The notes below the pieces were generated by a model, which saw nothing but the letters and a program-made list of their open reading frames with translations, was not told where the DNA came from and ran no database searches. Positions 46,458 to 60,743 of a stretch of 64,000 bases of DNA are shown here, in pieces. The position numbers were made by a program, and so were the translations under genes. The DNA is taken from the NCBI RefSeq assembly GCF_015169395.1, contig NZ_CP063458.1:992001-1056000 (forward strand), written 5' to 3'. Position 1 is the stretch's first letter. Each line of letters starts with the position of its first letter. Source of the stretch: Humisphaera borealis. GTDB taxonomy: Bacteria > Planctomycetota > Phycisphaerae > Tepidisphaerales > Tepidisphaeraceae.

Positions 46458-49400
46458 TCAGCCGAGCCTCTCCAGCTCCGCCTTCATGGCCGCCATCTGG
46501 TCCTTGGTCTGCTGAACAAGTTTCGGCGGCGCCTTGGCCAGGTACTGTTCGTTCGACAGCCGCCCTTCCATGCCGGCGATCAGCTTGGTGAGCTCTTCCC
46601 GCCGCTTTTCGATGCGCACCTTTTCAGCCGCCTCATCGACCAGGCCCTCGACATAGATCTCACACCCCGCCGAAAGCAGCTTGGCTGCGCCGGCGGGCGG
46701 TTGAACGTCGGGGCCGACTTCCTTCAGCGTGCAGAGGGACAGGCCTTCTATCACCTCGCGGTTCATCTCGACGGACCGTGCCCGTTCGGACGGGCAGTTG
46801 ATGCTGACGGCGACCACCTGCTTGGGGTTTACCTGCCGCTCGTTGCGGATCTGCCGGATGCCGGTGATCAGTTCCTGGACCTTCGGGAAAATGTGCTCGG
46901 CGGCTTCCGAGACGTCGCCAACTTTCGGCCAGGCCGCCGTCACGAGCCGGGGGCTCGGCGGGCAGTCGATCCTGCCGGGCAAGCCACGCTGCGGGCGGAC
47001 CTCGTTCAGTTTCCACCAGATCGTCTCGGTGATGAACGGAATCGCCGGGTGCATGAGACGCAATGAGCCGTCGAGCAGCGACGCGAGGATGTTCGCCGTC
47101 TGCGGCGCGCGGGCGGAATCCCTCATCGCCGGCTTGATTGCTTCCAGGTACCAGTCGCATAAATCCCGCCAGAAGAAGTCGTAGAGACTCTTGGCGTAGA
47201 CGTCGAACCGGTAGTCGGCGATCGCCTGGTTGCATTCGGCAACGGTCCGGTTGAACCGGCTGACGATCCAGCGGTCGGTCATGGACCATTTGCTCTCATC
47301 GACGCCCGTCGGGTCCGCCAGGGTGGACCCAATTGCCTCCAGACTTCCCAGCGCGTACCGAGCCGCGTTCCAGATCTTGTTGCAGAAGTTCCGACCGAGG
47401 TCGAACTTGCTGCTCGTGTTCTTCGCCACCGGCATGTCGGCGGTGGGCTTGGCCTGGCCGCTGGCGTAACCGTAGCTGCTGACGATCTTCTTCTTGGGGT
47501 CGCTCGGGCAAGATTGAATCGGTGCGGCGACCTTGTATCCGCCGCTGATGGTCGTCATCTGCGGCTTGAAGGTTTCGCCGGTGTGCGGGCAGACCAGGTC
47601 CACGGGCATCCGCAGGTCCTGCGTATGCGTGGTCATCGCGGCGAGCGTGTAACGCATCGCATCCGCGCCGTGGGACTGGATGATGTCCAAAGGATCGACG
47701 CCGTTGCCCAGCGTCTTGGACATCTTCTGGCCTTCGCCGTCCTGGATCATGGCGTGGATGAAGACGTCCGTGAACGGCAGGCAGTCGCGCAGATAAAGGT
47801 TAAACATCACCATCCGGCTGACCCAGAGCGTGATGATTTCGCGTGCCGTCGTCAGCACGTTCGACGGGTTCCACTTGGCCAGTTCAGCCGTCTCGGTCGG
47901 CCAGTTGAGCGTGGACAGCGGCCAGAGGCCGGAGCTGAACCAGGTGTCGAGGACGTCGGGGTCCTGGGTGTAGCCGAGCTGGTTGAGGAGTTCCAGCGCC
48001 GGGCGGTCGTCTTCCTCGCGGACGCAGATGAAACTGTGCTGAAGATCGATCGGTGCCAGTTCGTTGGTTCGGTCGGCATGGCGAATCGCCACGCGGCCGT
48101 CGTTCTTCAGGCGGATCAGTTGCTCGATGAGGCCTGAGAGCTGCTCGTCGGTCTTGCTGTCGACGGCGTCGTGATTCGTGAATCCCCAGACCGGGATGCG
48201 ATGCCCCCACCAGAGCTGCCGGCTGATGCACCAGTCGCGGATGTTCTCGTGCCAGGTCTGGAAGGTCTTTGCATACCGCGCGGGATAGAAGCGGAGCGTT
48301 CCGTCCGCTTTGGGCGACGATTCTCGCTGCTCGAACTGCTCCGGCGCCATCGCCCGGAGCGCTGCACCCGCCAACCGGTCATCCGTCACCTTGCAGTACC
48401 ACTGATCGCTCAGGTACGGCTCGATCGGCACGTGGCTGCGGTAGCTGTGGCCGACCGCGTGCTTGTAGGGCTTCATCTCTTCCAGCAGGCCCTGCTCCTT
48501 GAACCATTTGACGATGAGCTTGCGGGCCTCTTCGCGGCTCTTGCCGAGAACGAAGCCGGCTTCGCCGACGTCGGTCCAGCCGTGCTTGTCGGAGATGCTG
48601 GCATCCGGCGCCATCACGTTGATGACGGCCAGATTGTGCCGCCGGCCGATCTCGTAGTCGTTGGGATCATGGGCCGGCGTAACCTTCAGGAAGCCGGTGG
48701 CGAACTGCGCCTTGGAGTCTTCCGGATCGCCGCCGTGGGCGACCGACAAGACGACATAGTCGTCTTCCACGATGGGGATAATGCGATTGACGATCGGGAG
48801 TTTGATGAACTTGCCGCGCAGCGAAGCGGCTCGCGGGTCCTTCGGATTGATCGCGACGGCGGTATCGCCGAGCATGGTCTCGGGGCGGGTCGTGGCGACA
48901 ACCACATACGTAGGGTCCGCCTTGGCGGACGCGTCGGCTGACACGTTGGTGTTGGCGTCGGAAGCGTTGTCGCCGTTCGCCGCGTCCGCCAAGGCGGACC
49001 CTACAGAGGCGCCTTCTGCGTCCACGAGAGGATAACGCAGGTAATAGAACTGCCCGTCGACATCCTCCATCTCGACTTCGTCGTCGGCGAGCGCGGTTTG
49101 GGTGACCGGGTCCCAGTTCACCAGGCGTTTGCCGCGGTAGATCAGGCCGTCTTTGAACAGCCGGTAGAACGCTTCGCGGACTGCCTTAGCGCGTGGCGGA
49201 TCCATGGTGAACGCCTGGCGTTCCCAGTCGCAGGAACAGCCCATCGCCTTTAGCTGATCGGTGATCTTGAGTTCGTATTCATCTTTCCACGCCTGGACTT
49301 TCGTGAGGAACTGCTCGCGGCCGGGACCGCCTTCGGCTTCCATCCGCTTGAAGTCCTTGAGCGCGGGCTGGCCTTCGGCCTGGAGCCGGCGGTCGACGAT

Positions 49401-49676
49401 CGTCTGCGTGGCGATGCCGGCGTGGTCGGTGCCGGGCAGCCAACAGGTGTTGTCGCCGGCCATGCGGTGGTAACGGGTCAGGATGTCCTGGATCGTGTTG
49501 TTCAGCGCGTGGCCGAGGTGCAGCGCAGCAGTCACGTTGGGCGGCGGAATGACGATCGCATATGGGTTGCCCGGGTTGGCCGGCTCGGCATGGAAGCAGC
49601 CTTCCTTCAGCCAGACGGCGTAAGCTTCGGACTCGACGGCGGAAGGCTCGTACGTCTTGGAAAGTTCGGTTGGCAT
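46458..49676 (-). CDS. valS: Valyl-tRNA synthetase with an in-frame repeat insertion
   Basis: A 1072-residue class I synthetase, start at MPTELSKTYEP (49676). It has the HIGH-like motif PPNVTAALHLGHAL, a KMSKS motif (GQKMSKTLGNGVDP), LPGTDHAGIATQ, the anticodon domain and a C-terminal coiled-coil (about 1005-1072, RIEKRREELTKLIAGMEGRL). Two insertions are noted. The first, about 32 residues near 220-252 (VGSALADAANGDNAS, then SAKADPT), is encoded by REPIN element C. The second, about 60 residues near 720-780 with CPHTGETFKP and CPSDPKKK, resembles an insertion known in planctomycete ValS. It charges tRNA-Val. Confidence 0.97.
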   Translation of the reverse strand: MPTELSKTYEPSAVESEAYAVWLKEGCFHAEPANPGNPYAIVIPPPNVTAALHLGHALNNTIQDILTRYHRMAGDNTCWLPGTDHAGIATQTIVDRRLQAEGQPALKDFKRMEAEGGPGREQFLTKVQAWKDEYELKITDQLKAMGCSCDWERQAFTMDPPRAKAVREAFYRLFKDGLIYRGKRLVNWDPVTQTALADDEVEMEDVDGQFYYLRYPLVDAEGASVGSALADAANGDNASDANTNVSADASAKADPTYVVVATTRPETMLGDTAVAINPKDPRAASLRGKFIKLPIVNRIIPIVEDDYVVLSVAHGGDPEDSKAQFATGFLKVTPAHDPNDYEIGRRHNLAVINVMAPDASISDKHGWTDVGEAGFVLGKSREEARKLIVKWFKEQGLLEEMKPYKHAVGHSYRSHVPIEPYLSDQWYCKVTDDRLAGAALRAMAPEQFEQRESSPKADGTLRFYPARYAKTFQTWHENIRDWCISRQLWWGHRIPVWGFTNHDAVDSKTDEQLSGLIEQLIRLKNDGRVAIRHADRTNELAPIDLQHSFICVREEDDRPALELLNQLGYTQDPDVLDTWFSSGLWPLSTLNWPTETAELAKWNPSNVLTTAREIITLWVSRMVMFNLYLRDCLPFTDVFIHAMIQDGEGQKMSKTLGNGVDPLDIIQSHGADAMRYTLAAMTTHTQDLRMPVDLVCPHTGETFKPQMTTISGGYKVAAPIQSCPSDPKKKIVSSYGYASGQAKPTADMPVAKNTSSKFDLGRNFCNKIWNAARYALGSLEAIGSTLADPTGVDESKWSMTDRWIVSRFNRTVAECNQAIADYRFDVYAKSLYDFFWRDLCDWYLEAIKPAMRDSARAPQTANILASLLDGSLRLMHPAIPFITETIWWKLNEVRPQRGLPGRIDCPPSPRLVTAAWPKVGDVSEAAEHIFPKVQELITGIRQIRNERQVNPKQVVAVSINCPSERARSVEMNREVIEGLSLCTLKEVGPDVQPPAGAAKLLSAGCEIYVEGLVDEAAEKVRIEKRREELTKLIAGMEGRLSNEQYLAKAPPKLVQQTKDQMAAMKAELERLG
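48910..49004. repeat. REPIN-type element C inside valS
   Basis: Two perfect 24-base inverted arms, gtagggtccgccttggcgg... (48910-48933) and its complement ending cggaccctac (48981-49004). Each arm is a hairpin (gtccgcc-tt-ggcggac). The whole 95-base element is within the valS reading frame without any stop and is translated as about 32 residues. Same stem type as element D at 60590. Confidence 0.9.
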
Positions 49677-60589: not shown

Positions 60590-60743
60590 GTAGGGTCCGC
60601 CTTGGCGGACGGGCGAAAGCCGACTGGAAGCAGCCCGCGGGGTCCGCCTTGGCGGACACGCGAAAGCCAATGGGAAGCAGCAAATCCGGTAAACACTCGA
60701 GCGTGCCGTCAGCCCGAGACGCGTCCGCCAAGGCGGACCCTAC
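60590..60743. repeat. REPIN/BIME-type element D (GTAGGG termini, three hairpins)
   Basis: The left end gtagggtccgccttggcggac... (60590) and right end ...gcggaccctac (60743) are inverted. A further direct copy of the stem (ggtccgccttggcggac) starts at 60641, 47 bases after the first, with the adjacent cgaaagcc and ggaagcagc also repeated. So the element is two direct REPs plus one inverted REP. It lies between the response regulator stop and the M16 gene start, only ten bases from the start codon. Confidence 0.85.

Follow-up and report, generated by a model that had tools for sequence, protein, structure and literature searches.

A probable REPIN in frame in the valyl-tRNA synthetase gene of Humisphaera borealis, at a loop that holds whole REP-associated transposases in relatives

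Results and discussion

The best explanation of our results, which as a whole we regard as very probable, is that the valyl-tRNA synthetase gene (valS) of Humisphaera borealis carries, inserted in frame, a REPIN, the non-autonomous mobile form of a REP/RAYT system, and that the ValS loop which it occupies takes up such DNA repeatedly, other REP families and REP-RAYT-REP cassettes having entered it independently. What lies beyond the original prediction, and is the surprising part, is that this loop is a recurrent target and that relatives carry a whole transposase there. The window, i.e. the whole stretch of DNA analyzed, comprises 64,000 nt of the forward strand of contig NZ_CP063458.1 (positions 992,001-1,056,000) in the 7.19-Mb, single-contig genome of H. 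borealis (G000), and the following features were located in it.

46461..49676, minus strand: valS, 1072 aa, the sole ValS detected, with the REPIN in frame (open frame and Pfam)
48910..49004, no strand assigned: REPIN made of an inverted pair of GTAG-class REP units, perfect 24-nt arms 47 nt apart, about 32 ValS residues
48910..48933, plus strand: REP unit GTAGGGTCCGCCTTGGCGGACGCG, left arm (inverted-repeat and core searches)
48981..49004, minus strand: second REP unit, inverted (inverted-repeat and core searches)
48900..49028 (approximate), minus strand: loop of ValS leading into the CP1 editing domain (LVDAEGAS...TYVV), from alignment with 1GAX; REP/RAYT hot spot in relatives
60590..60743, no strand assigned: second site with this REP family (three arms), apparently intergenic, both flanking genes on the minus strand

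A pair of inverted REP units in the valS reading frame

On the minus strand, the ATG at 49676 opens a frame that runs to 46461 without a stop or a shift, and its product matched the ValS domains PF00133, PF08264 and PF10458 of Pfam, being the only ValS match in the genome at E<=1e-30. Within this frame, the inverted-repeat search recovered the two perfect 24-base inverted arms that had been predicted (GTAGGGTCCGCCTTGGCGGACGCG / CGCGTCCGCCAAGGCGGACCCTAC), which form the outer part of a 27-nt inverted repeat at 96% (48910-48936 and 48978-49004). Each arm has its own hairpin, GTCCGCC-TT-GGCGGAC, behind a GTAGG foot, and folding of the REPIN RNA gave a 24-bp stem. The ValS stretch encoded by the REPIN, VGSALADAANGDNASDANTNVSADASAKADPT, lies between YPLVDAEGAS and TYVVVATTRPET, where the original prediction had put it, and the REP-encoded peptide obtained by conceptual translation is YPLVDAEGASVGSALADAANGDNASDANTNVSADASAK. 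Translation of the insert and function of the enzyme are inferred, no proteomic or activity data being at hand.

The assignment to the REP type was also borne out, by the GTAG foot followed by a palindrome, the inverted pairing and the high copy number. The 16-nt core gave 14 matches in the window (<=3 mismatches) against 1.84 expected (0 of 100 shuffles), and the 21-nt unit was observed in 266 copies (136 + 130) in the genome, with 0 in the reversed control; a chance palindrome was ruled out by this core excess and copy number. The consensus over 129 genomic copies was sharp from GTAG through GACGCG. GTAG directs TnpAREP cleavage in vitro (PMC8266576). No enrichment of a CT dinucleotide was found 5' of GTAG, the only side examined (8 of 129 copies), and this counts against our explanation because a simple TnpAREP cleavage rule might predict CT. 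The same stem had been expected at 60590-60743; it is present there, but as three arms, at 60590-60610 (plus), 60637-60657 (plus, with the variant foot GCGGG) and 60723-60743 (minus), and the intergenic status of the site rests on an inferred gene start.

Seventy-nine sites of this family, taken non-randomly from the first 100 sites listed, were sampled in the window and in further stretches of the genome. Since 38 of the 79 are inverted (+-) pairs, the REPIN in ValS is typical of the family. By codon-usage score, three sites were intragenic and in frame, namely ValS and the genes at genome positions 1916426, where a REPIN of the family lies in frame in a shikimate-dehydrogenase-like gene, and 3516490; the other 76 were not so scored, as befits a family that had been taken to be normally extragenic. 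The score is blind to out-of-frame insertions that ended a gene, and the proportion of 3 in 79 supports a putative strong counter-selection of the family inside genes. That the family is mobile, as predicted, agrees with its copy number and its absence from close relatives (see below), mobility itself being inferred. RAYTs are present in this genome, several of them flanked by REPs of their own that are not of the valS type; at none of the RAYT-like loci examined was the window's REP (GTAGGGTCC...) found within about 1.5 kb, and therefore the enzyme that mobilises it is unidentified.

Di Nocera et al. (2013; PMC3733652) described GTAG/CGTC REPs in genes, in frame, tRNA synthetases included, and for this reason the single in-gene REP of valS is not a first.

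Position of the insert and its absence from relatives

Alignment with the ValS of T. thermophilus (1GAX) placed the insert after residue 204 and before residue 209, where the CP1 editing domain begins; we take these residues to flank a turn that connects two strands. In the window this loop numbers 43 residues. A same-genus relative (G001) has 21, another genus of the family 15 and T. thermophilus about 4, the usual size in Phycisphaerae being 9-16 residues; the loop of G018 reads QDGHAAGGITH. The predicted addition of about 32 residues thus holds for the encoded stretch and needed refinement for the loop as a whole: the REPIN is 95 nt, or 31.67 codons, and therefore the insert and an altered flanking loop together account for the difference in length. 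In alignments of Phycisphaerae ValS, the 32-residue segment was seen to be absent from the same-genus enzyme, which is 84% identical over the N-terminal part and has the short loop GPDGEGGERGEGGTPEY without a REPIN, and relatives lacked those residues. With this and the 266 genomic copies of the unit, neither of the two findings that would have refuted the original prediction was made. Judged from this absence, the insertion appears to be recent.

Other material was also found in this ValS loop. G-rich or tandem simple repeats, which are not REPs, fill it in four genomes (G001, G014, G004 and G015), and a conserved non-repeat insertion of 42-43 residues (SELAARGYP) is present in one family, f4 (G054, G037, G028, G217 and G262).

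An ancestral, clade-specific expansion of the ValS loop that merely resembles a repeat could draw on the long non-repeat loop of family f4, which lies at the same place, and yet the f4 sequence (LVHAP...SELAARGYP) bears no relation to that of the window and lacks a long inverted repeat. An ancestral loop is refuted by the window's arms, which match hundreds of copies in the genome exactly, and by the absence from the congener, and we give this reading practically no weight beside insertion of a REPIN.

The same ValS loop is hit by other REPs and by whole RAYTs

Among 138 Phycisphaerae ValS loops, paired REP arms were observed in five (G000, G002, G016, G022 and G164), another inverted repeat in one (G005) and a whole RAYT in frame in 13. 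The REPIN loops read GTGGCATGGGCG... in G022 and G016, GTGGCACGGGTTT... in G002 and GTAGCACGGGCG... in G164; because the arms of G022/G016 and G164 share a similar core, the number of unrelated REP sequences is given as at least three, that of the window included. Genome-wide, the arm families numbered 535 (G016), 363 (G022), 86 (G002) and 30 (G164), with 0 in the reversed control, each being counted by one degenerate pattern that includes close variants. Within genus g52, the REPIN was found in G164, and G063, G150 and G160 had a short loop without it. The insert ended, at its right edge, 7-10 nt ahead of VATTRPET in each of the five REPIN loops that were measured.

Nine ValS sequences that were at first unparsable each proved to have a complete RAYT in frame in the loop, and four more were then found. 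Seven of the first nine ORFs were full length (1218-1359 aa); of the other two, one is truncated at an ambiguous base and one at the end of a contig. Those ValS-RAYT genomes that were among the genomes listed in the ValS search had a single ValS match each at E<=1e-30. As an internal control, the Y1 transposase matches of ten genomes were compared, and only the nine in ValS lay in frames of more than 900 aa, the others being in frames of 50-255 aa. Draft genomes, mostly assembled from metagenomes, are the source of nearly all the RAYT fusions; those in DinG and ThiD2-ThiE of the single-contig G000 (see below) are the exceptions. The predicted structure of the RAYT within CP1 was poor (pLDDT 49) and was not used. 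At locus L261, a ValS that already carries a RAYT has a second translated REP (HGQDGRDTNHGQDARAT) in another editing-domain loop.

It may be that the REPIN is a neutral decoration, a chance in-frame insertion in a tolerant loop that is linked to the RAYT cassettes by nothing more than the permissiveness of that loop. We keep this as a serious possibility without leaning towards it. Intragenic REPs are already known (PMC3733652), the three in-frame sites of G000 are in unrelated genes, and embedded RAYTs are found in numerous proteins and loops, all of which would suit it. However, several unrelated REP families, and RAYTs too, have entered one ValS loop. A tolerant loop might by itself be enough to explain this, and further evidence on the point comes from the age of the cassettes, considered below. 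Recurrent landing at the ValS loop remains the reading that we prefer.

Identity and conservation of the embedded domain

On the combined evidence of profile, catalytic residues, predicted fold and flanking REPs, the domains embedded in the relatives are RAYT (TnpAREP) domains. They matched PF01797 (Y1_Tnp) above the cut-off and scored 64-77 bits with NF047646, the REP-associated transposase profile, just under its cut-off of 80. TnpAREP 4ER8 was the only match in a PDB sequence search with an embedded RAYT, and also the first structural match (E 1.4e-07, TMq 0.55) of a model predicted from 59 sequences (pLDDT 93.6). The HUH motif (His120, His122) and Tyr180 were kept in all of the 60 embedded copies, a set for which the search pattern had pre-selected HUH, not Tyr. 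In every RAYT pair measured dN was less than dS, the division into embedded and free copies in part of this analysis being blurred by duplicates of embedded loci. Inverted flanking arms of >=12 nt were present in 36 of 57 embedded RAYTs (largest null 12), and single or decayed REPs in others; only the embedded count is given, as the 'free' group held duplicates of embedded loci (e.g. L034, L242 and L270).

RAYTs in other enzymes and their inferred movement

With a ValS-embedded RAYT as query against 198 Phycisphaerae genomes, 35 of the 61 matches lay in frames of more than 500 aa. The hosts identified by profile were DinG/YoaA (in G000), EtfB, DUF1156 methylase, Eco57I-type methylase, AlaS, IspG, FabZ, TsaC/Sua5, MetH, GH38, type ISP methylase, CCA-transferase and adenosine deaminase. 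A second RAYT subfamily was found in ValS at another place, in one IleS-like and three LeuS-like synthetases, in RdgB/Ham1 and at the C-terminal end of ThiD2-ThiE (in G000); at several of these loci Pfam gave the host domains but no Y1_Tnp match, and the RAYT call is based on the profile of A1. In the H. borealis genome itself, a RAYT lies in frame inside the DinG/YoaA helicase, between perfect 28-nt REP arms (C1:3416017-3416586), and a RAYT of the other subfamily extends the ThiD2-ThiE frame at its C-terminal end (C1:930395-930697), with a similar case in G023. In a Lentisphaerae MAG (L266), a RAYT near a methylase-like frame is interrupted or ended by an in-frame stop, and the locus was excluded from the RAYT tree and counts.

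In the RAYT tree, host-specific clades were obtained for MetH (SH-aLRT 99), IspG (87) and FabZ (82), and the ValS and DinG copies did not form single clades, each having four label changes of which strongly supported branches force only one; several origins of the ValS and DinG RAYTs are thus likely but not proven from these sequences. For the ValS pair G287/G129, pS was about 0.2 across the RAYT, and most ValS windows to its left and right gave 0.6-1.0. The RAYT of the Eco57I methylase pair from G114 and G047 was likewise less diverged at synonymous sites than its host, less sharply than in the ValS pair. Only a single ValS pair and some of the methylases give the signal of a young cassette, the other pairs being saturated or equally diverged. 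A RAYT less diverged than its host in two host genes suggests horizontal, homing-like re-entry at an old site, as far as can be inferred from synonymous divergence; alternatively, the RAYT may have been replaced through gene conversion by a copy that was not seen. Together with the recurrence at the ValS loop, this signal amounts to more than one chance event, which argues against neutral decoration.

The host-specific clades, together with the purifying selection and the invariant catalytic residues, could also be taken to mean that the embedded RAYT has been domesticated, serving the host enzyme and being inherited vertically. We think this unlikely, for the ValS and DinG RAYTs are not single clades, the presence of RAYTs is patchy within families, the cassette is younger than the gene in two hosts, and unrelated enzymes carry it.

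Removal of the insert before or after translation, in the manner of an intron or an intein, would leave a normal enzyme; it would account for the tolerance by essential enzymes, and the 24-bp RNA stem of the REPIN could be cited for it. But the linkers and the RAYT are open in frame throughout, which splicing would not need. A scan of six fusion loci matched no Rfam family, group I and II introns included, and no Hint/intein domain was found in the fusions scanned with Pfam; on these two results an intron and an intein, respectively, were rejected. We regard removal as very improbable, and retention of the insert in the protein, as an unspliced segment, is the reading adopted below.

Proposed mechanism

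A RAYT would cut and join single-stranded REP hairpins; REP or RAYT insertions that break a gene would be lost, and the survivors would be in-frame, stop-free insertions in an exposed loop. In H. borealis, the single valS detected may have taken up the REPIN at the tip of the beta-turn that precedes its CP1 editing domain. The REPIN would then be translated, giving a hydrophilic linker some 32 residues long, and it would persist because the CP1-entry loop tolerates inserts. In the REP-RAYT-REP cassettes of relatives, the HUH/Tyr transposase would be read as an internal, unspliced domain of ValS. A cassette in frame in an essential enzyme would gain the expression of its host, and its loss by frameshift or nonsense mutation would be hard; at least some cassettes may have spread again into the same site of orthologous genes. 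Transposition and homing are inferred. By a bolder proposal, which we advance only tentatively and to which we would not yet commit ourselves, REP-RAYT-REP is an unrecognised class of protein-embedded, unspliced homing or transposable element, i.e. an HUH transposase without its own start or stop that would use enzymes as expression vehicles and re-enter the same loop in orthologues, REPINs, that of the window included, being its non-autonomous form.

Relation to known systems

The single translated REP is of a kind already known, and for the RAYTs in enzymes no earlier report was found in the open-access literature. We know of no transposase gene carried by the palindromic elements of Rickettsia. 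These elements, which are cited in PMC3733652, are likewise palindromes translated within genes, and the comparison is an analogy only. The REPs of the same paper share with the window the GTAG foot, the palindrome, in-frame inverted dimers and inserts of 20-30 residues, and those in recB of Xanthomonas are at about one site; however, the accessible part deals with REPs only, with no RAYT within a host gene and no recurrent ValS site used by several families. REPINs as set out in the available portion of Bertels and Rainey (2011; PMC3116915) are also mobile inverted REP pairs of high copy number in genomes having RAYT genes, whereas in the window one unit is translated in an essential gene and the cognate RAYT is unidentified.

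In a survey of TnpAY1/TnpAREP (PMC6006769), unexpectedly long proteins were put aside as fusions of genes or mistakes of annotation, frame-preserving REP insertions were described within tnpA itself, and REPtrons were stated not to transpose as a unit. The embedded RAYTs have the RAYT fold, HUH and Tyr in common with those proteins, but here the whole REP-RAYT-REP is in frame in enzymes. Inteins, IStrons (PMC4227781) and the yeast WHO elements (PMC7282813) are likewise selfish DNA in conserved genes with re-entry at one site, and the WHO elements also function without protein splicing; unlike these systems, the embedded RAYTs had no splicing domain or ribozyme that we could find, encode a Y1 HUH transposase, and are inferred to be retained in the protein.

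These observations suggest that mobile DNA can live inside essential proteins. If many genera do carry in-frame transposases at a common loop of essential enzymes, the view of how RAYTs persist would change, and these transposases would provide natural domain-insertion experiments in aminoacyl-tRNA synthetases and other enzymes. They would also explain the unusually long conserved enzymes of planctomycetes and verrucomicrobia.
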